Below are positions 5,212 through 57,885 of a DNA stretch of 64,000 nucleotides, piece by piece. Positions within the stretch are counted from its first letter, which is position 1; each line of letters begins with the position of its first letter. A program made the position numbers and the translations under genes. Source of the stretch: Candidatus Poribacteria bacterium (GTDB lineage Bacteria > Poribacteria > WGA-4E > WGA-3G); NCBI GenBank assembly GCA_012270865.1, contig JAAXHL010000100.1:1-64000 (forward strand), in the 5' to 3' direction. The notes below the pieces were generated by a model. It was not told the origin of the DNA. It saw nothing but the letters and a program-made list of their open reading frames with translations, and did no database searches.

Positions 5212-5987
5212 TACTTCGTTTTGATTTTTTCACTGTGTACAAACCCTGAAGTTTGTAACCGTACAGAATCCCCGCCTTCCGTCTCCACATATCCCATCCT
5301 GAGCAGTGTAATGATTTCGTGAGAGGTCGGTACGTTAAAGCGTTGGCGGATCTGTTCACGATCCGCAGCACTTTCGAGTGGTGCGCTGACAAACTGCACA
5401 CCGATTTTCAAAGCAGTCGCGGCAAGCAGTACATTCTGAATCAGCATCCCCATACTCAACCACATCCATCGGGTCGCGCCTTGACCGGGCGGGAATCTTT
5501 TGCAGTTCATCGTCACTAACATGAGCAGTGGTGCTTCGCGGACCTGTGTCGCTATCTCTCTCGCAGGAAGTTTTCCAGCACCGAGATGTCCGAGGAGCGT
5601 GAACGATTTTGCGTTTTTTAGGAATTCTTGTAGTAGTTTCTCAGGTGCGTCCTGAAGCGGTTTCGGTAGCGTGACGTGTTCGGAGAGCAGAACGCCGTCG
5701 CCACGTGCCTGCCATTCTGCCTCTGTTACACGCATCCATCGGCTGTTGTCGTCAAGGAATTTTGGGTCCTTGAATTGTGCGATGACTGCGCGTTCTGTCA
5801 AGTCAGCGAGAGCCGTTTTGCCTTCCGGTTCCTGAATTATCACGAGTTCCCAAGGTTGAACATTGAAAGGTGAGGGTGCCCATCGTGCCGCCTCAATGAG
5901 TTTCTGAAGGTCGTCGGCATCTATTGCGCGTTCTTGAAATGCACCACGATGGCTTCGGCGTTGGGTCATTGTATCAAAAACATTCAT
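5211..5987 (-). CDS. nitroreductase family protein
   Basis: A 258-aa FMN-dependent nitroreductase-fold oxidoreductase, expected to use NAD(P)H to reduce nitro compounds, quinones or similar substrates. Visible family features are the N-terminal QRRSHRGAF motif, RWAPSPFNVQPW (residues 35-46, the FMN-contacting APS-N-QPW block) and the C-terminal NVLLAATALKIG helix before the second flavin contact. The ATG overlaps the stop of the upstream kinase gene by four bases (ATGA), so the two are translationally coupled. The pairing does not reveal the substrate. Confidence 0.88.
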   Translation of the reverse strand: MNVFDTMTQRRSHRGAFQERAIDADDLQKLIEAARWAPSPFNVQPWELVIIQEPEGKTALADLTERAVIAQFKDPKFLDDNSRWMRVTEAEWQARGDGVLLSEHVTLPKPLQDAPEKLLQEFLKNAKSFTLLGHLGAGKLPAREIATQVREAPLLMLVTMNCKRFPPGQGATRWMWLSMGMLIQNVLLAATALKIGVQFVSAPLESAADREQIRQRFNVPTSHEIITLLRMGYVETEGGDSVRLQTSGFVHSEKIKTK

Positions 5988-7027
5988 GGATTAGCGAGGC
6001 TCCGATGGCGTTCAAGGACTTCTGCGGGTGAGGCAGTCCCGGTTGTGCCGATTTTGGTGACAGTGATAGAAGCCACCAGATTTCCGACATAAGCTGCTTC
6101 AACGGCGTGATCTGCTCCGAGGCAACAGAGTGTCGAGACAAGACCTGCCGAGACGCTGTCACCTGCGCCAACAAGGTCGGTTTGGTCGTCGATCGGGATC
6201 CCCGGAATGTGTGTGAACGTGTCGTTCCAATAGACGAGGATACCGTTTTCGCCGAGGGTGATGTATGTGGTGTTTTGCGTCTTCTCCGCGAGGCGAATGG
6301 CATCTTGTTTTGCTTCCTCAATGTCAACTTGCTGTCCATGCCAGTCCGGTTGAACGGCGCGTTTTGCCTCGAATCGGTTCGGTTTGATGATGACGTTTTG
6401 ATATTCACCAATCCGTGTGCGAGAATCGGCGAAAAAAACTTTTTCTCGGAATTGCGCTGCTGACTGACAGAGTGCCTCCCGTACGCGTGTTGTGAGGACT
6501 CCTAAATTCTCAATCGGCATCTGATCTCCGATGATGACCCCATCAACAAGTGGAAGGCAGGTTTGAAGTGCCGCAATAACGGCATCTTGAACTTCCGCTG
6601 GCATGGGGGATTGGTTCTCAATATCAAATCTCGGTCCCTCTGTTTCGACACCTTCATGACCGCGATGGATCGGTTTAAGATAGGTCGGCGTAACCCATCT
6701 GGGTGCTTGTACCATAAAATCTGTCAAGCATCCGTTTTCGCGTAGGCAGCTGAGGAGTGTCCTGCCGAACCCGTCCTCACCGATGACCCCCAGGGTGTAG
6801 ACAGTCCCAACGCCTAACGCTTTCAGGTTATTCGTAACGGTTCCTGCAGCACCCGGGCTGTAACGTTGTTCGACGACGGGGTTCGTATGCCACGGCGTTT
6901 CCAGCGAGAGCGTTGATCGCGTCTTGTCTATGTACCAGTAGGCATCAAGGTAGAAATCCCCTACGACAAGGATGCGTTGTTCGCGGAAGTTATTGAGAAT
7001 TGTTTTCAGACGCGCTTCGCTGATCAA
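5984..7027 (-). CDS. PfkB/RfaE-type carbohydrate kinase
   Basis: A ribokinase-fold sugar kinase of about 347 aa. Motif 1 is PGAAGTVTNNLKALG, the glycine-rich substrate lid; the C-terminal motif DLVGAGDSVSAG carries the catalytic Asp of the GAGD anion hole. The early VVGDFYLDAYW resembles the heptose-7-phosphate kinase (RfaE N-domain) branch. I place the start at TTG 7027 because GGAGG (7034-7038) sits 6 nt upstream; an earlier TTG at 7048 has no such site. It is coupled to the nitroreductase gene by an ATGA overlap. The true sugar is unknown. Confidence 0.85.
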   Translation of the reverse strand: MISEARLKTILNNFREQRILVVGDFYLDAYWYIDKTRSTLSLETPWHTNPVVEQRYSPGAAGTVTNNLKALGVGTVYTLGVIGEDGFGRTLLSCLRENGCLTDFMVQAPRWVTPTYLKPIHRGHEGVETEGPRFDIENQSPMPAEVQDAVIAALQTCLPLVDGVIIGDQMPIENLGVLTTRVREALCQSAAQFREKVFFADSRTRIGEYQNVIIKPNRFEAKRAVQPDWHGQQVDIEEAKQDAIRLAEKTQNTTYITLGENGILVYWNDTFTHIPGIPIDDQTDLVGAGDSVSAGLVSTLCCLGADHAVEAAYVGNLVASITVTKIGTTGTASPAEVLERHRSLANP

Positions 7028-41658: not shown

Positions 41659-44181
41659 GTTTCAATCTCGTAATCAAGAATCTTTTATTTTCAAGGCAAT
41701 ACGTAATTAACGTGAGTTTGATAATTAAACGTGGGTTGGAGAATAAAATACAATATGGACGTAGGTTGGGTTGAGCGGTAAAGTCCCAGTCTCACTTTCG
41801 CTATACACAGCACTCCGTTCTTCAATGAACCGTTGGGGTAGATAGGTGTAGCGAAACCCAACATCCCAAACCATGTCGGTCTCATAATGCGTTGGGTTTC
41901 ACTCGGTTTGTGGTGATTTCCGGTTTCTTTGTTCTTGAAAACGCTGTGCTATGTGTGATTTTCAGTAAGTCTCCGTTCAACCCAACCTACGGAAGCTTCA
42001 ATTTTTATTTTCAAACTCACGTTAATTACTGTTCGGGCTTAATTATCTCAGCGTTTCAATCTCGTAATCGAGAATCTTTTCTTTTCAAGTCAGATGGCTT
42101 GGTGAATTGGCGGATTCAGATAAAATGTTTCAATCTCGTAATCGAGAATCTTTTCTTTTCAAGCGAAGTGCCTTTTTAGGCTGAAATCTAAAGCGTGTCC
42201 AGTTTCAATCTCGTAATCGAGAATCTTTTATTTTCAAGGCAAATGGATGGTTATTTCTTGACGGTTACTTTTGGAGGTTTCAATCTCGTAATCGAGAATC
42301 TTTTATTTTCAAGACCCATGTCGGACTCGCAGACAGGCTACTGCCTTCCTCGTTTCAATCTCGTAATCGAGAATCTTTTCTTTTCAAGAACCACCCAAAC
42401 CTGTATCCTGAAAAGGTGTCTGTTTTAGTTTCAATCTCGTAATCGAGAATCTTTTCTTTTCAAGGAACACGCGCTGCTAACCGAGACTGAAGAAGAAGCA
42501 CATGGTTTCAATCTCGTAATCGAGAATCTTTTCTTTTCAAGGCAAGGAGAGCAAGAAATCACAGCAGGAAAACAATCTGGTTTCAATCTCGTAATCGAGA
42601 ATCTTTTCTTTTCAAGGAACCACTATGTGATCCAGTCGGGTTGGAATATCGTTGTTTCAATCTCGTAATCGAGAATCTTTTCTTTTCAAGTCGTCATTGG
42701 AATATGGGACGGACATCGTGTATGCGAAGTTTCAATCTCGTAATCGAGAATCTTTTCTTTTCAAGATATTCTCATGGTAAACCTCTATGAGTAGGCACGT
42801 CCCCGAGTTTCAATCTCGTAATCGAGAATCTTTTCTTTTCAAGCTTGCGTGCTATAATTGAAGCGGGTTCACAGTTTGAGTTTCAATCTCGTAATCGAGA
42901 ATCTTTTCTTTTCAAGACAACAGTAGCACCGCCAGTGACAATCGCCCCTGTGATGTTTCAATCTCGTAATCGAGAATCTTTTCTTTTCAAGGAAATATCC
43001 AATCCGTACCCCGATTGCCAATTGGACGTTTCAATCTCGTAATCGAGAATCTTTTCTTTTCAAGGTCATAAGGCGTTGTGTCTACAAAGAGGTTTTTAAT
43101 CGTTTCAATCTCGTAATCGAGAATCTTTTCTTTTCAAGAATCTCAAAGGTATCACTGGACGCGAATTTTTTGTAGGTTTCAATCTCGTAATCGAGAATCT
43201 TTTCTTTTCAAGGTCACATACCCATCGGTGTGCGTCAGGGGCCATTCACCGCTAATGTTTCAATCTCGTAATCGAGAATCTTTTCTTTTCAAGCAACACA
43301 GAACGAAAATACTGGACACGCTTTGACTGGGTTTCAATCTCGTAATCGAGAATCTTTTCTTTTTAAGACGTTCAGTTTTCGGGTGGCTCATTTGTTGATG
43401 TCACTGGTTTCAATCTCGTAATCGAGAATCTTTTCTTTTCAAGCACATCGGTCGCCTTGATAAACTTGCGGATCGCATGTTTCAATCTCGTAATCGAGAA
43501 TCTTTTCTTTTCAAGTCCGATGTTCTCAACCTTTTCAGGTATCAACATTTCTGTTTCAATCTCGTAATCGAGAATCTTTTCTTTTCAAGTCCTGCCCGGC
43601 GGTGGGTTTGAGGGCATATCACCACAGTTTCAATCTCGTAATCGAGAATCTTTTCTTTTCAAGAGGAACAGGTAGAATTCATCAAGGAACACGGCATTCC
43701 GGTTTCAATCTCGTAATCGAGAATCTTTTCTTTTCAAGCCGCTATCAAGATACGTTCCGCTTCCTTGTAATTCAGTTTCAATCTCGTAATCGAGAATCTT
43801 TTCTTTTCAAGGCCACCCGACAAAAACGAAACATCAACGATAAACGCGTTTCAATCTCGTAATCGAGAATCTTTTCTTTTCAAGGCGTTCTTTTGCTTGT
43901 CAATATGCCCGTAGTGCTTAATGTTTCAATCTCGTAATCGAGAATCTTTTCTTTTCAAGTTTGCCTTGCCGAACCGTCCGCTTCAAATGGTCATAGTTTC
44001 AATCTCGTAATCGAGAATCTTTTCTTTTCAAGCGTGAGTTTACCAACGGCAAGGGTGCATTACACCATGTTTCAATCTCGTAATCGAGAATCTTTTCTTT
44101 TCAAGTAAAGGTGAAGATGCAACAGGATATACCGGCGATGTTCAGTTTCAATCTCGTAATCGAGAATCTTTTCTTTTCAAG
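41659..44181 (-). CRISPR. type I-D CRISPR array, 30 repeats
   Basis: Thirty 37-bp repeats starting GTTTCAATCTCGTAATCGAG on the plus strand separate 28 normal spacers of 35-44 bp and one interrupted spacer. On the minus strand each repeat ends GATTGAAAC and forms a TCTCG-ATTA-CGAGA hairpin, giving an ATTGAAAC crRNA handle. The array is therefore transcribed leftward from the leader beside cas2. The repeat at 41659 is degenerate, with a G-to-A change that breaks the stem, as expected at the leader-distal end. Those at 41659, 42202 and 42277 share a C-to-A change; 43331 has one C-to-T. The first spacer is split by a MITE-like element (41703-42029). Confidence 0.98.
41703..42029 (-). mobile_element. 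MITE-like element inserted in the oldest CRISPR spacer, copy 1
   Basis: Perfect 19-bp inverted ends, GTAATTAACGTGAGTTTGA (41703-41721) and its complement (42011-42029), enclose a second inverted pair, GTAGGTTGGGTTGA near 41761 and TCAACCCAACCTAC near 41977. There is no transposase. If TTAA at 41707-41710 and 42022-42025 is a target duplication, the original spacer would be 42 bp, within the array's range. A diverged copy in the opposite orientation is at 48364-48659. Confidence 0.8.
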
Positions 44182-44377
44182 AGCCGTCCATCGGAACCCT
44201 TGCCGCACGTGCCTCAACCTTATGCGTTTCTGTGAGCGAGGGACTTTGCCATATCCATAAACGCAGAACACATCGCAATAAAAGACTGAATGCACGGTCC
44301 ATAAGGGTCTCTACCTCTCTATGAGGGACCAAGGTTTTTTGGTCTCCTTCCGCAGACAGAATTAACTTTCTATGTTA
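44182..44377 (-). other. CRISPR leader
   Basis: About 195 bp between the array promoter and the first (newest) repeat. It holds no gene. The transcript side includes GGAGACC and GGTCCCTC segments that can pair. It sits between cas2 and the array on the same strand, as expected for a leader. Confidence 0.7.
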
Positions 44378-49450: not shown

Positions 49451-50434
49451 CTACGTTTCACTTTTGCCATAGAGTGCTGTGATGCTATCTAACAACCCTT
49501 TCACTTCATCTGGTGAAGCAAATTGTTGCTGGATTTCGCCAATCAACTCAGTTATTTCTGTTTCGGTGAAGGGCTGTACGGTGCCTATGACTTCACCAGT
49601 TAACGCTGCGACGGCATCGGCAATTACCGACTTGACTTTGTTTCTGTCGAGCGGGAACTGCCTACCCTCTGAACCGAGTCGGTCATAAACAGCCTGCGTT
49701 AACTCCAAATTGCTGAAGATCTCACAATCACTGAAAATCGCCCCGACAAGTATGTTCCGCATCTTACCCAATCGTGAGGATATCGCACCGTAACGACGAC
49801 TCCGCAACACGTTTGCTATGACGTAGTGGATTTCGCCCGCTGTTAAATCTTTGAGGGTCTGCATATCAATGAACAGCGTTTCCGGTTTGACATATTCGTC
49901 TTCCTGAATGCTTGAGGATGCCTGTCCGGTAACGGGATCACGCATCGTGTTGTTATCGTAGAGCGCGTTGAATGTTCGCTTTGCTGTAACGGTTTGATAA
50001 GGTAGAATGCTGAAAGCATCGTCTGTTATGACGCGCGATTTTTGGGCACCACCACCGCCGACAGCATAACCGTAAATCATACAGTCAGCACACTGTGCGC
50101 ACGGCTTATTGCGGTTGAGGGCACAAATATTTTCCTCTTTTTCATCTCCTGTGTAGAATAGTAGGTTATGTTGTCGCAGAAGTTCACGACCCGTGCGACG
50201 CTCAACAGCGGTCTGTTTACGTTTACTAATCGTTACGCGAGAGATAGGATCGCGGTTCTCTGGTTCAAGTCCAGCGTGGATTGTATCTCGGCTTAACCCC
50301 TCACCGGAACCTTCTGTCCGGAAGATCATCTCTGATTCCGCCTTCCGCAAGACAATTAGTGTCAGATAACGGCTTTGCGGAAAGTTTTCGTATTTTTCGG
50401 CTATAAAGTCGGTATAATTATTCAAAATACTCAT
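49451..50434 (-). CDS. csc2: Csc2 (Cas7 backbone subunit of type I-D)
   Basis: A 327-aa RAMP protein that polymerises along the crRNA. A Cys cluster (CALNRNKPCAQCADCMIYG, about 103-121) forms the zinc-binding insertion known in Csc2. RKQTAVERRTGRELLRQHNL and VLRSRRYGAISSRLGKMRN are conserved blocks. The ATG overlaps the csc3 stop by four bases (ATGA), so the two subunits are coupled. Confidence 0.9.
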   Translation of the reverse strand: MSILNNYTDFIAEKYENFPQSRYLTLIVLRKAESEMIFRTEGSGEGLSRDTIHAGLEPENRDPISRVTISKRKQTAVERRTGRELLRQHNLLFYTGDEKEENICALNRNKPCAQCADCMIYGYAVGGGGAQKSRVITDDAFSILPYQTVTAKRTFNALYDNNTMRDPVTGQASSSIQEDEYVKPETLFIDMQTLKDLTAGEIHYVIANVLRSRRYGAISSRLGKMRNILVGAIFSDCEIFSNLELTQAVYDRLGSEGRQFPLDRNKVKSVIADAVAALTGEVIGTVQPFTETEITELIGEIQQQFASPDEVKGLLDSITALYGKSET

Positions 50435-53265
50435 GATTGTTGTTCCTCCTTGTCCCTATCACGTTTGGGGATCATTTCGGTAATGAAATAAAGATATCCG
50501 GAACGAATCCGTTTCCGGTTTTCAAGAAAATTAAGCAGATTGCCTTGATAAACGCCTTTGTAAATTTGATCAAACAGAACAGCGATAAATTGCGAAATAC
50601 TCTCCAATTTTTTAGCACCGTAGAACTGCTTATTAAGACGTTCAATTGATCGGGCGACTTCTTTAGACATAATGGCTCTCGCTTCTTCTTCAGTTTCGTA
50701 TTCAGGCTGCCAGCGTTCAAGGCAGTCAAATGCAACATCAAGCGGTTTCGCGAGTGAATTGTCTTTGAGACTCTCACCCTTCAATCTACCTTCCCATGCA
50801 ATACGGGCGAGTTCCTTAATGTGAGACATAATCGTTTCTCCTCCTTTCTGTGCCACGACATCGGCAATAAGTTGTGCCGTGTCACGGACGGTTACGAACT
50901 GCCGCGGTTCATTTCCGGCTTGTTCGCGTTTAATCATGCGGTGGGTTACATAGTAGAGTTCAAGCGCGTCGTGATTCAAACTCCGAATCAAGCGAATCAG
51001 ATCGTCAGCGTCAATGCTTCCAATCTTTGATCGAATGGTATGTAAGTTCAGGATCTGTTCAAATGCCTGTTGCGTCATGGCATTGTTCAGGTTGTTATCC
51101 GGCAACCATCCCCGAAATGCAGAAGGGATATGGTCAATAAAGAGGTGACTGAATTCGTCACCGGAAAAGAGTGGAATTGACGAATCGGTTATCACTGCTC
51201 GGCACCCTAAAAAGCGTTGATATAACAAGGCGTTTTCAATCGCAAATAAAATGTTCTCTGTATGATTGTTCCCGGGTGTGTTGACGGGGATCGTCAGAAT
51301 ATTTCCAAGTGCCTCTGAGAACCTCGGAAGTGGGTTTCCGTTGATTTTTGTCGGTGAAAACGTTAGTTCCAACTGTGTCTTTTCCTGATAGTTCCGAAGG
51401 ACATCATCTGTCTTGAGAAACACGGATGGGAAATCGGGATCGCGAAAATTTTCTTGTGCGCGTTGGAAAGCCCGAATAAAAATATTCGTAAAAAAGGAGG
51501 TTGGGTATAGATGAATAAAAAATGTAGCCGTGCTGCCACCGACATTGTAACAGAGTTTGTCGAGCATGTATTGGGTTCTGCATACACTGCAAACGCGGCG
51601 TTTCGGTTCACGCGATGATCCGCCCTCAAGTCGATTGGAAAACTGTTGTACCTTGATATTCGCTGGTACATCTGGCTTCATCCAGAGAGCGGTATCAAAT
51701 TCTGACCCGCAAGTACTACACTGAACGTGGTTATCCTCAACATAGCGTTTTAGATTTGTGCCAAAACCCCGTTCCCTATTAGCAACGAAGTTGAAATCAA
51801 CGTACTTAAGAACGTAATCAACCAACAGATTGAATTCGCTTTCGGTTTCTAAAGTTTCTAAAAACTGGGTGCCATCTTGGACAATCAACTCGTAAATCTC
51901 ATCAAACCCGCGACCGGCATTGTAGAGATCGCGTCCGATGATGTAGCCTCGGTCCCAAAGGGCACTAAACAAGGCGTATCGCTCGCGATAGGTTGTATCC
52001 TCAGAATTTAATGGCAATTCAAGCAGCCCGTAGATGTGTAACCACGCGTCGGTAACAGTCTTGGAAAAATGCTTATTAAGGAAGCTATAGTATGTTCTCA
52101 CTAATTCCCCGATCCGAATAGCATCATCGTCAGGCGGTAGTCGATAGGTTTCTGTCTCTAAGATTTTATCCAACAACGCCTTCTGTTCAGCCACATTTGG
52201 ATCTGAATTGTGCAACTTATCTTGAACGCCTTCAAGCCGCTCTCGACACTTAGCGTTCATGGCATCCACTTTCGCGTTTGCGACATACTTACGTTCGCTG
52301 ATGATATTCCAAACTTCATTCCAAATTTCTGAGAAAGAAACGCCGAGGGAAATACATTTTTCATCGACTTTTATACCGGCAGGACTCCCTTGAATAAACT
52401 TGGTGAATTCGCCACGAGTCTTTGATTCAATATTATGGACGACGGCGTTTCCAATTTCTGCGATTTCATCGGTTGTGATGTGAACATCGCGGTCCCGATC
52501 AACAAGATATGCTACACCGTCAGGATAATAGAGCAGCGGCAGCAAGCCTTTTTCGGATTCCAGATATTTCACAATTTCATTGTGGATGAGGTTCGTCAAA
52601 ATACCGCGCTGTTCGTTCACTTTATGGTATACGAACTTGTACTGAGTATCACAGATACTATTGATTTCTATGAGAAAATCCCGTTTCTTTGCACGTTCCT
52701 CAAGTGTTTTTGATAGGTCAATGACATCTATCGATCGGATAATAGGAACAAGGTAGTTCAGGAGCCTGTCCTTATCCAGTGAGTACGGATCATAATTCAG
52801 GTCAAGCGTTTCAGCGTAGGTGTTGTGGAAACGTGAATGGGCGCGAATCAGGACCTCAATATCTTTCAAATAATCTTCCCATTCAGGGAAGAAATTCCCT
52901 ATTTCAAGTTCTGTCAATACGCTACTGATATTTTCTGCGTTTGCGAGATAGTTAAAAGAACGCTTCGTTTCCTGGAATTCTTCAAGTTTGTTCAGATCAT
53001 GGACGCTGAAAGCACTGAATAGTACTTGAACCTCAATATCGTCAAGGTTCAATATCGGACGCAACCGCTCCAGCACGCAAATTCCATTCATGATATGAAG
53101 GTAAAGCGATTGTCCTGCTTTCGCACCATATTGGATGATTTCCTGATATTTACGTAACTTCCTATTGGCGATTGTGTCCATATAATTTTGAAAGATGTCG
53201 CCTGCTTCTGAATCGATTCCAAAAGTGAGTAATAAATCTTCGATTTCGGGCTTCTGTCTTGCCAT
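50431..53265 (-). CDS. csc3: Csc3/Cas10d, HD-containing large subunit of type I-D
   Basis: A 944-aa protein from ATG 53265 (AAGGAG 5 nt upstream). The N-terminal HD nuclease keeps H57, H89-D90, H143 and H147. Two CxxC pairs near 513-560 (CSTCG and CSVC) form a zinc finger, followed by degenerate Cas10-like palm regions without a GGDD. In type I-D this subunit replaces Cas8 and supplies the nuclease that works with Cas3'. It is first in the cas operon and appears intact. Confidence 0.92.
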   Translation of the reverse strand: MARQKPEIEDLLLTFGIDSEAGDIFQNYMDTIANRKLRKYQEIIQYGAKAGQSLYLHIMNGICVLERLRPILNLDDIEVQVLFSAFSVHDLNKLEEFQETKRSFNYLANAENISSVLTELEIGNFFPEWEDYLKDIEVLIRAHSRFHNTYAETLDLNYDPYSLDKDRLLNYLVPIIRSIDVIDLSKTLEERAKKRDFLIEINSICDTQYKFVYHKVNEQRGILTNLIHNEIVKYLESEKGLLPLLYYPDGVAYLVDRDRDVHITTDEIAEIGNAVVHNIESKTRGEFTKFIQGSPAGIKVDEKCISLGVSFSEIWNEVWNIISERKYVANAKVDAMNAKCRERLEGVQDKLHNSDPNVAEQKALLDKILETETYRLPPDDDAIRIGELVRTYYSFLNKHFSKTVTDAWLHIYGLLELPLNSEDTTYRERYALFSALWDRGYIIGRDLYNAGRGFDEIYELIVQDGTQFLETLETESEFNLLVDYVLKYVDFNFVANRERGFGTNLKRYVEDNHVQCSTCGSEFDTALWMKPDVPANIKVQQFSNRLEGGSSREPKRRVCSVCRTQYMLDKLCYNVGGSTATFFIHLYPTSFFTNIFIRAFQRAQENFRDPDFPSVFLKTDDVLRNYQEKTQLELTFSPTKINGNPLPRFSEALGNILTIPVNTPGNNHTENILFAIENALLYQRFLGCRAVITDSSIPLFSGDEFSHLFIDHIPSAFRGWLPDNNLNNAMTQQAFEQILNLHTIRSKIGSIDADDLIRLIRSLNHDALELYYVTHRMIKREQAGNEPRQFVTVRDTAQLIADVVAQKGGETIMSHIKELARIAWEGRLKGESLKDNSLAKPLDVAFDCLERWQPEYETEEEARAIMSKEVARSIERLNKQFYGAKKLESISQFIAVLFDQIYKGVYQGNLLNFLENRKRIRSGYLYFITEMIPKRDRDKEEQQS

Positions 53266-53340
53266 GATGTCTCCTTCCATTTGTCAACTTGGGGTACATA
53301 TAATCATGCAAACCCGCGATTGATGTCCAATTTTCCTTAA

Positions 53341-53447: not shown

Positions 53448-53476
53448 TTGACTTTGGACACAAAATTAGGTATACT
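53448..53476 (+). promoter_or_regulatory. strong sigma-70 promoter for the tandem RNA units
   Basis: TTGACT (53448-53453), 17 nt, TATACT (53471-53476). The predicted start at 53483 is 14 nt before the first structured unit, with no open reading frame downstream. Confidence 0.75.
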
Positions 53477-53496
53477 ATTATCAAATAGTTCTCTTG

Positions 53497-53592
53497 CAGA
53501 AGTAAAATCGCAGCCGAAAACTGTCGCGTATGCCGAGCTGCCTACTGATCAGTAGGATAGGTTGCCCACCTTCTCACTAAGGTGGTTTTCTG
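53497..53592 (+). ncRNA. structured RNA unit A (unrecognised)
   Basis: Ninety-six nucleotides whose ends pair (CAGAA with TTCTG). Inside are GCAGC/GCTGC, CTACTG/CAGTAG and CCACCTT/AAGGTGG stems, the last followed by TTTTCTG. About 38 nt at the 5' side (AGTAAAATCGCAGCCGAAAA, then CTGTCGCGTATGCC) and ATAGGTTGCCCACC are nearly identical in unit B, while the hairpin arms differ and stay paired. The unit is the first on a promoter-driven transcript between the cas operon and the WYL gene. Orientation is set by the promoter and the 3' U-run. Confidence 0.7.
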
Positions 53593-53627
53593 CCGGACGA
53601 CCCGCGGTTTAAAAATTAGATGAGAAT

Positions 53628-53726
53628 CAGAAGTAAAATCGCAGCCGAAAACTGTTGCGTATGCCAGACTGCCCGTTGACGGGTCGATGGGATAGGTTGC
53701 CCACCCCTCACAGGGGTGGTTTTCTG
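53628..53726 (+). ncRNA. structured RNA unit B (unrecognised)
   Basis: A second copy, 131 bp downstream of unit A. The end pairs CAGAA/TTCTG and the conserved segments are kept. The variable hairpins are now CCCGT/ACGGG and CCACCCC/GGGGTGG, so both changed on each side in a compensatory way. The GCAG/CTGC stem is one pair shorter. It could be processed from the same transcript as unit A or be a second domain of one RNA. Confidence 0.7.
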
Positions 53727-53796
53727 TGCAATCACTAACAAGCAGAAATACTATATGACAGACTTTCAAGAGCGTGTCAATTTTTTCGGGATTAAT

Positions 53797-53825
53797 TTGA
53801 CTTATCTTGTATTGAATGATATAGT
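53797..53825 (+). promoter_or_regulatory. sigma-70 promoter for a short RNA
   Basis: TTGACT (53797-53802), 17 nt, TATAGT (53820-53825), with a predicted start near 53832. Confidence 0.65.
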
Positions 53826-53831
53826 ATTTTC

Positions 53832-53883
53832 CAGTGCAGGACTGAACCCTCCCTCGGTGGTGGGTGTAGGTCCTGCTTTTTTT
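53832..53883 (+). ncRNA. putative ~52-nt small RNA with intrinsic terminator
   Basis: From the promoter above, a transcript of about 52 nt would end at GCAGGAC (53836-53842) paired with GTCCTGC (53870-53876) followed by seven T. The loop contains ACCCTCCC and GGTGGTGGGT, which can pair in part and expose a CCTCC that resembles an anti-Shine-Dalgarno. No coding frame fits. It lies between the tandem RNA units and the WYL gene. Confidence 0.6.
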
Positions 53884-54064: not shown

Positions 54065-55108
54065 CTATGTCCCTTTCAAATCTCCAGAATAGATCCCGTG
54101 CATCCGGCGCACTATTTCTTCAAACTCCGCACGGAATTCTGGTGGGTCTAAGACCTCCACAGCATCGCCGAGACTCAATACCCAAAATGTGAAATCTTCT
54201 TTCGGGACCTCATAACGGACAATCACAGAACCGTCCGGACACTGTTCCGTAATCTCTTGGGATCGATGCCGTTCCTTTTCGGTCACGAGATATGCTTTGT
54301 GGGCAGCGATTTTCAGCGTCACGCGGATCGGGTCACCACTAAAGAGTTCCCATCGAGATGCTAAATCTTCGGACAATGAAAAATCCGCAGGCATTTCAAA
54401 AGTCTCGTCCGTTAGCATAACCCTTTGAAAACGGAGGATTTTGAAAGTAAGTGAGGCGTTTTCGGATTGGTTGGACCTCGCTTCAAGATACCAATCCGAT
54501 TTTCGGAAAAAGATGGCGTACGGGTGGAGTATGTGTCTAACGAACTCTGTTTTACCGCCCGGCTGATAAGTCGCTCGAACCACCTTTTGTTCGTAAAGTG
54601 CTTCTTCCAAGACACGAAAATTTCTTTCAGCGTCGTTATCGCCGTTATTACTATAGGGGTCCACACCTTCTGGAAGATGAAGATGTTCATCGGTCTCATC
54701 GGTGCTATCTACGCGTTCAAGTAATACCGGAGTATCCTTCTCCAATTTTGACTGGATATGTTCAGCAAGGGACACATCCAGTTTTTCCAAAACGCTTTTG
54801 AGGATTGTTTCAAGACGCTGTTCTTTTGCAAGCGGCGAGGCGGTAATCACCAATTCCAGAACCTGTGCTTCCTCTGATGTGATTCGCGGCCAACGTAGTG
54901 GACGTTCTGCCTCAATCCAATAGGAGCCTCTATCCTTTTTCAGATCGTAGAAGTCTCTGATAACTTTCAGGTCTTCATAAATGCGGGTTATATCAACGTC
55001 GTAAAATCCAGCTAAATCCCGGACTTTGATGCCTCTTGATGATTTCTTGAGACGTTCAATTATTTTCAGAATACGACGTACCTGTTTTCTTCCGTCACTA
55101 TAGCCCAT
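54065..55108 (-). CDS. WYL-domain transcriptional regulator
   Basis: A 347-aa protein from ATG 55108 (AAGGAG 8 nt upstream). The N-terminal winged helix (QVRRILKIIERLKKSSRGIK then VRDLAGFYDVDITRIYEDLK) would bind DNA. A central WYL domain follows (LHPYAIFFRKSDWYLEARS, with DWYLE matching the name motif), then a C-terminal WCX-like extension. WYL regulators are known near CRISPR-Cas loci and can sense nucleotide ligands. Here the gene lies inside the inverted repeats with the cas genes, so control of the locus is a reasonable inference. Confidence 0.88.
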   Translation of the reverse strand: MGYSDGRKQVRRILKIIERLKKSSRGIKVRDLAGFYDVDITRIYEDLKVIRDFYDLKKDRGSYWIEAERPLRWPRITSEEAQVLELVITASPLAKEQRLETILKSVLEKLDVSLAEHIQSKLEKDTPVLLERVDSTDETDEHLHLPEGVDPYSNNGDNDAERNFRVLEEALYEQKVVRATYQPGGKTEFVRHILHPYAIFFRKSDWYLEARSNQSENASLTFKILRFQRVMLTDETFEMPADFSLSEDLASRWELFSGDPIRVTLKIAAHKAYLVTEKERHRSQEITEQCPDGSVIVRYEVPKEDFTFWVLSLGDAVEVLDPPEFRAEFEEIVRRMHGIYSGDLKGT

Positions 55109-55277
55109 ATTTCTTGCTCCTTGGCAGATAGCCTCAAGAACTGTTCCTATCAAACAGAAACGAACGATTAGATATATCTGTGTTAAGTCTAACATAAGAA
55201 AACGCTGAACGCAAAATATTTCTATCCTTCCAATTTTCCACTATTCCGACCGTCTTTTGGTCTACTGGGAATCAAGG

Positions 55278-55376
55278 GTCGCAACCTAACAGGATACGCT
55301 ACGAAAGAGAGTCGCAACCTAACAGGATACGCTACGAAAGAGAGTCGCAACCTAACAGGATACGCTACGAAAGAGA
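55278..55376. repeat. three perfect 33-bp tandem repeats
   Basis: Units starting GTCGCAACCTAACAGGATAC and ending GCTACGAAAGAGA begin at 55278, 55311 and 55344 with no spacers between them. They lie between the WYL gene and the right inverted repeat, in its upstream region. The absence of spacers argues against a CRISPR. Confidence 0.9.
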
Positions 55377-57741: not shown

Positions 57742-57885
57742 TGTAGGAGCGTGCTGTGCACGCGAGCATTGCTAATTTGTAGGAGCGTGCTGTGCACGCG
57801 AGCGTTGCTAATTTGTAGGAGCATGCTGTGCACGCGAGCATTGCTAATTTGTAGGAGCGTGCTGTGCACGCGAGCGTTGTTAATT
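57742..57885. repeat. four 36-bp tandem TGTAGGA hairpin repeats
   Basis: Units at 57742, 57778, 57814 and 57850 read TGTAGGAGCGTGC, TGT, GCACGCGAGC, then a spacer ending CTAATT. Each forms a GCGTGC/GCACGC stem; the third has GCATGC. They are the inverted form of the repeats at 10750-10810 and 17570-17595 and fill the gap between convergent genes. Confidence 0.85.

Follow-up and report, generated by a model that had tools for sequence, protein, structure and literature searches.

A tandem structured small RNA associated with DUF3800 genes, retained without its protein partner in a Poribacteria defence locus

Small structured RNAs adjoining genes for DUF3800 proteins are represented in Rfam by the families DUF3800-I to DUF3800-XI. 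They have been catalogued since 2017, and we know of no function assigned to them; they reportedly lie beside DUF3800 genes and have a single-gene sRNA character (Weinberg 2017, gkx699, as cited in PMC10910872). Like the RNA described here (class 1), which lies in a 64,000-nt stretch of a Candidatus Poribacteria contig (hereafter the window), DUF3800-IX (RF02968) is a small structured RNA with its own promoter that converges with a DUF3800 gene. Inspected by eye, the two share a core in which a P2 helix, with CC/GG closing around CCGAA, is combined with one small and one variable hairpin and with AUAGG. Class 1 differs in having two more helices, the outer P1 and the 3' hairpin P5, and in that its units are paired in tandem and are frequently orphans; neither covariance model recovers the members of the other, the class-1 model R1 giving no DUF3800-IX matches. 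With DUF3800 RNAs in general class 1 shares the location beside DUF3800 and a presumed single-gene sRNA character; most of those RNAs are single, whereas class 1 is tandem, forms a sequence class new to Rfam 15 and is also present in defence loci that have lost the protein.

Two further systems are comparable. AbiF is neutralized through direct RNA-protein contact by two tandem abiF motifs (PMC12373285), and this antitoxin RNA (AbiF/RCd22) resembles class 1 in that a single small RNA carries two structured motifs in tandem and adjoins a defence-type protein; the AbiF RNA, however, precedes its gene, and AbiF has a structural link to Cas13 ancestors, whereas DUF3800 is convergent with its RNA and is predicted to be RNase H2-like. 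Type III toxin-antitoxin systems (ToxIN, TenpIN and CptIN) likewise combine RNA repeats with an adjoining ribonuclease-like protein, but their repeats of 34-50 nt are upstream of and co-transcribed with a toxin of ToxN/AbiQ fold, whereas class 1 has 97-nt convergent units and a partner modelled as RNase H2-like. Class 1 thus has the tandem repeats of type III systems and neither the upstream co-transcription nor a ToxN/AbiQ-like fold, and since arrangement and protein fold differ, membership is not claimed.

In the window, class 1 consists of two units on the plus strand, at 53497-53592 (111.5 bits with R1) and 53628-53726 (108.5 bits), which are approximately 81% identical and separated by a 35-nt linker (53593-53627); linkers at other class-1 loci are of about 8 or about 35 nt. 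Their positions agree with those in the initial annotation, as does the promoter TTGACT-17-TATACT (53448-53476, plus strand; 10 of 12 matches), which ends 20 nt 5' of unit 1 and has a TTGAC/TATACT-like counterpart at the equivalent position in 25 of 26 class-1 loci. In unit 1 the helices are P1 (53497-53502/53587-53592), P2 (53510-53515/53560-53565), P4 (53541-53547/53550-53556) and P5 (53566-53572/53579-53585); in unit 2 they are P1 (53628-53633/53721-53726), P2 (53641-53646/53695-53700), P4 (53672-53679/53684-53691) and P5 (53701-53707/53713-53719), the last being followed by a terminator-like TTTTCTG. A TGACA..TGTCA hairpin with a T-run (53756-53786, plus strand) is a weak candidate terminator of the tandem transcript (fold z-score -0.2). 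No third copy of the unit was detected in this genome (5.28 Mb in 223 contigs, 92.7% complete).

An alignment of 55 homologous units supports five helices: P1 (CAGAAG/TTTCTG), which closes the unit, the long-range P2 (GCAGCC/GGTTGC), the small hairpin P3, the variable hairpin P4 and the 3' hairpin P5. Pairing is kept in 97.8% of cells, and compensatory (two-sided) changes occur at 18 of 30 pairs; cells with such changes number 187, against 59.6 +/- 10 in shuffled alignments, none of 500 shuffles being as high, and sliding the helix register lowers pairing to 30-50%. G-U pairs (181) far outnumber A-C mispairs (15), implying that the RNA is read from the plus strand. The proposal of a structured RNA with covarying stems, first made from only the two window units, is therefore strongly supported by its homologues; a small structured RNA is present here in two tandem copies and has a promoter of its own. 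The units also contain a conserved stretch, GAAAACURUUGCGUAUGC. With regard to individual stems, the P5 arms (CCACCTT/AAGGTGG versus CCACCCC/GGGGTGG) and the end pairing CAGAA/TTCTG in both units had been correctly recognized, while P2, P3 and a second promoter with a hairpin RNA at 53797-53883 had been overlooked, and CCCGT/ACGGG in unit 2 was a mis-paired alternative inside P4, where the conserved helix is CCCGTTGA (53672-53679)/TCGATGGG (53684-53691).

DNA and covariance-model searches located class-1 RNA in 25 of 85 Poribacteria genomes, all of one family, with at least two tandem copies at 25 of 27 loci and three or four units at L041, L052 and L057. At the I-D locus L041 (9000-9651), two class-1 tandem pairs follow each other, each with its own promoter, and only the second adjoins DUF3800. 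No Rfam 15 model matched the window at gathering score or either unit when both were searched, the Rfam DUF3800 models gave nothing for the window units at E<=10, and 12 homologous loci had no Rfam 15 match at E<=1. Exact motif hits were absent from viral contigs. The earlier statement that no family with such a layout is known is literally true for Rfam 15; a known kind nevertheless fits, that of RNAs adjoining DUF3800 genes, of which Rfam DUF3800-VIII and -IX are examples.

This assignment is based on a small gene, c6, which lies between class-1 RNA and a WYL gene in many loci and corresponds to Pfam DUF3800. It converges with the RNA, its stop codon being 3-70 nt from the last unit; the class-1 DUF3800 gene of L099, for instance, occupies 5653-6252. 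A protein search for c6 in the same 85 genomes, run independently of the RNA, showed that all homologues with more than 48% identity are beside class-1 RNA, that all ten intact genes of the class-1 DUF3800 clade adjoin the RNA, and that no intact clade gene occurs without it in these genomes. Conversely, the gene is intact at 10, broken or fragmentary at 6 and absent at 11 (the window included) of the 27 class-1 loci, which belong to one family and are not independent observations; the window is thus outside the 16 loci with an intact or broken DUF3800 gene. No DUF3800 relatives were found in plasmids or viral contigs. A divergent class-1 RNA in another family (R1: 24.6 bits, E 6.6e-4) is 9 nt from, and convergent with, a 31%-identical DUF3800 gene. 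That class 1 is a kind of DUF3800-associated RNA is well supported by these data.

No DUF3800 gene was detected in the window's genome even at E 10, so that this organism has kept class-1 RNA, and also an orphan RNA belonging to another DUF3800 class, after the protein has gone. Orphan units show 96.9% pairing, compared with 98.7% at loci with DUF3800, and compensatory changes are seen in them as well, including two that distinguish the window from its closest orphan relative; the orphan units have therefore not yet decayed. It is possible that the orphan RNA has a protective or regulatory role.

An RNase H fold has been reported for DUF3800 (PMC10910872), and an AlphaFold model of c6 agrees with it (four sequences; pLDDT 78, pTM 0.79): its best PDB structure matches are all RNase H2/HII (E down to 4e-7, TM approximately 0.5), so that an RNase H2-like fold is predicted, while sequence searches of PDB returned no relatives. 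In a 12-sequence alignment, D19 (the presumed catalytic residue), E20 and G22 are invariant and D165 is nearly so; in L093, a close homologue, K replaces E20.

A similar layout, in which an RNA with its own promoter converges with the DUF3800 stop codon, is shared across DUF3800 subfamilies and with a second phylum. The second small RNA of the window is an orphan of this kind (class 3; 53836-53883, plus strand), a GCAGGAC-TGAACC..GTAG-GTCCTGC hairpin with a TTTTTTT end (fold z -4.1), preceded by the promoter TTGACT-17-TATAGT (53797-53825, plus strand) detected in a promoter scan of the window. Class-3 RNA converges on the 3' end of 231-aa DUF3800 genes (L134 and L136) and was also found in L048, L058, L112, L119, L135 and L159; in L112 it fills the slot of the window's class 1 beside an apparently truncated DUF3800 gene, and in L119, which is from another family, it lies between WYL and cas10d. 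Nine further DUF3800 genes (31-38% identical) each have, at the 3' end, an RNA of approximately 125 nt whose promoter is near-consensus and whose terminator is perfect. The distant DUF3800 genes of L121-L128 and L130 have an RNA of about this length (TTTGCCCGAATACGTGCCGTATGG..GCTAGAG..CTCTAGC-TTTT) that is not in Rfam, and 284-aa DUF3800 genes (L142, L144, L146-L148, L150 and L152-L155) have a convergent RNA, GCCAGTGGACAAAATTCGGG..TATATCCCTGGC-TTTTTT, also not in Rfam; the 231-aa and 284-aa proteins thus come with two further RNA types. No such convergent RNA was seen with the 300-aa subfamily (L137, L138, L140 and L141). Classes 2-4 of DUF3800-type RNA had no Rfam match at either gathering or permissive thresholds. 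Classes 1 and 3, at a minimum, are thus additions to what Rfam 15 contains, and the same phylum has further classes. Among 291 genomes of the second phylum, two DUF3800 genes (L166 and L168) have a Rfam DUF3800-IX RNA, convergent as in class 1. L158 has a Rfam DUF3800-VIII RNA (2314-2378) 5' of its DUF3800 gene and a second, different RNA converging on the 3' end of the gene.

A convergent near-consensus promoter within 250 nt of the stop codon was found for 33 of 60 DUF3800 genes and 15 of 445 other genes, a count in which the genes were picked by sequence pattern, related loci are not independent and class-1 promoters, being beyond 250 nt, are mostly not included, so that its p-value should not be read literally. 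A universal YGAA..UAGG core was considered for DUF3800 RNAs and rejected, as its strict form is present at 11 of 56 DUF3800 and 18 of 455 other gene ends (several of the latter belong to WYL genes with an orphan RNA alongside, or to DUF3800 genes missed by the name filter); the motif is recurrent, not universal.

The telling feature of these data is an asymmetry: RNA without protein is common, and no protein of the clade was seen without RNA. Such a distribution is expected if the protein is costly without the RNA, and the retention of the RNA after loss of the protein in the window's genome suggests a possible role as the antidote in a toxin-antidote pair. As the data fit a protein tolerated only together with its RNA, we favour, with some reserve, the reading that class-1 RNA is an antitoxin-like RNA restraining a DUF3800 nuclease, which by analogy may work like a type III antitoxin or the AbiF-neutralizing RNA. 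According to this model, class-1 RNA would fold into repeated, putatively protein-binding units and would be produced in excess from a strong constitutive promoter, the units holding the nuclease inactive; if the RNA were lost or shut off, for example during infection or by loss of the locus, the nuclease would be freed. The orphan RNA of the window could then be a relic in decay or, alternatively, an anti-addiction copy protecting against incoming DUF3800 modules. Several points stand against an antitoxin: orphan copies have kept their fold, although a pure antitoxin that has no target need not do so; the RNA is convergent with DUF3800, whereas type III RNAs are transcribed upstream together with the toxin; most other DUF3800 RNAs are not in tandem; DUF3800 could instead require the RNA as a subunit; and the loci, being from one family, are not independent. 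The asymmetry makes the question of whether DUF3800 is an RNA-restrained toxin directly and cheaply testable. On a broader and rather speculative view, DUF3800 genes and their convergent RNAs might constitute a large and so far unrecognized set of RNA-controlled nuclease modules, antitoxin-like or RNA-dependent, that are interchangeable in loci for CRISPR and restriction systems; the two RNAs of the window and other solitary ones would then be protective anti-addiction copies.

Among the alternatives, DUF3800 could be a ribonucleoprotein nuclease in which the RNA is the subunit that activates or guides it, comparable to the omegaRNA of TnpB, with orphans as relics. The strict co-location of clade and RNA agrees with this, as does the predicted RNase H-type fold of DUF3800 (also reported in PMC10910872), which is like that of several RNA-guided nucleases. 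We nevertheless consider it unlikely, because class 1 has no variable unpaired guide stretch, its variation falling in compensated stems while the long single-stranded part is best conserved, and because it is the protein that decays while orphan RNAs persist, opposite to the expectation for a subunit that has become useless.

Still less probable is a regulatory action of the RNA on the adjacent defence operon or WYL gene without involvement of DUF3800. A divergent operon, in most cases one for defence, adjoins class-1 RNA at every locus, and WYL usually lies on its opposite side; the RNA also persists without DUF3800, with compensatory changes in orphans. However, the divergent operons are unrelated, including a window-like I-D type, a second I-D lineage (Cas10d approximately 25% identical), two I-B types and type I restriction (HsdRMS), which argues against a common cis target, and the DUF3800 partner recurs with divergent RNAs elsewhere. 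An I-D-specific element was rejected, since the neighbouring operon varies. The position next to a type I-D cas operon is thus true of the window and no property of the RNA; as to a role linked to the I-D/WYL position, a WYL gene adjoins most homologous loci but the cas operon is not the same throughout, and the constant partner is DUF3800. A CreTA-like or crRNA-like RNA guarding the CRISPR system, as a small promoter-driven RNA beside cas10d might suggest, is very improbable, because the best match to the local CRISPR repeat is no better than shuffles, so that degenerate repeats are lacking, and the same RNA occurs at restriction-modification loci. Functionless terminator or repeat debris, which the terminator-like score of P5 plus TTTTCTG in both units might indicate, is refuted by covariation (five helices in 55 copies), with the conserved promoter and the mere two copies in the genome also against it.

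In the window, the RNAs are flanked by cas10d (50431-53280, minus strand), with which the divergent type I-D operon begins and which is a neighbour outside the RNA module, and by a WYL-domain regulator (54065-55195, minus strand; Pfam WYL and WCX) that converges with them. At most homologous loci DUF3800 lies between class-1 RNA and WYL, and DUF3800-RNA pairs of class 1 and other classes are placed with a defence operon on one side and a WYL regulator on the other; a defence role of class-1 RNA is likely. In L037-L061, effector genes in the slot between the WYL/bioD flank and cas6 are exchanged (two I-D lineages and I-B) while cas6 and the flanking genes are constant, suggesting modular exchange at one chromosomal site. 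The window also contains a CRISPR array 3' of cas2 (41659-44204; approximately 30 repeats of 37 nt, GTTTCAATCTCGTAATCGAGAATCTTTTCTTTTCAAG) and two largely intergenic sets of near-perfect tandem repeats, at 55278-55376 (33 nt, three copies) and 57742-57885 (36 nt, four copies).
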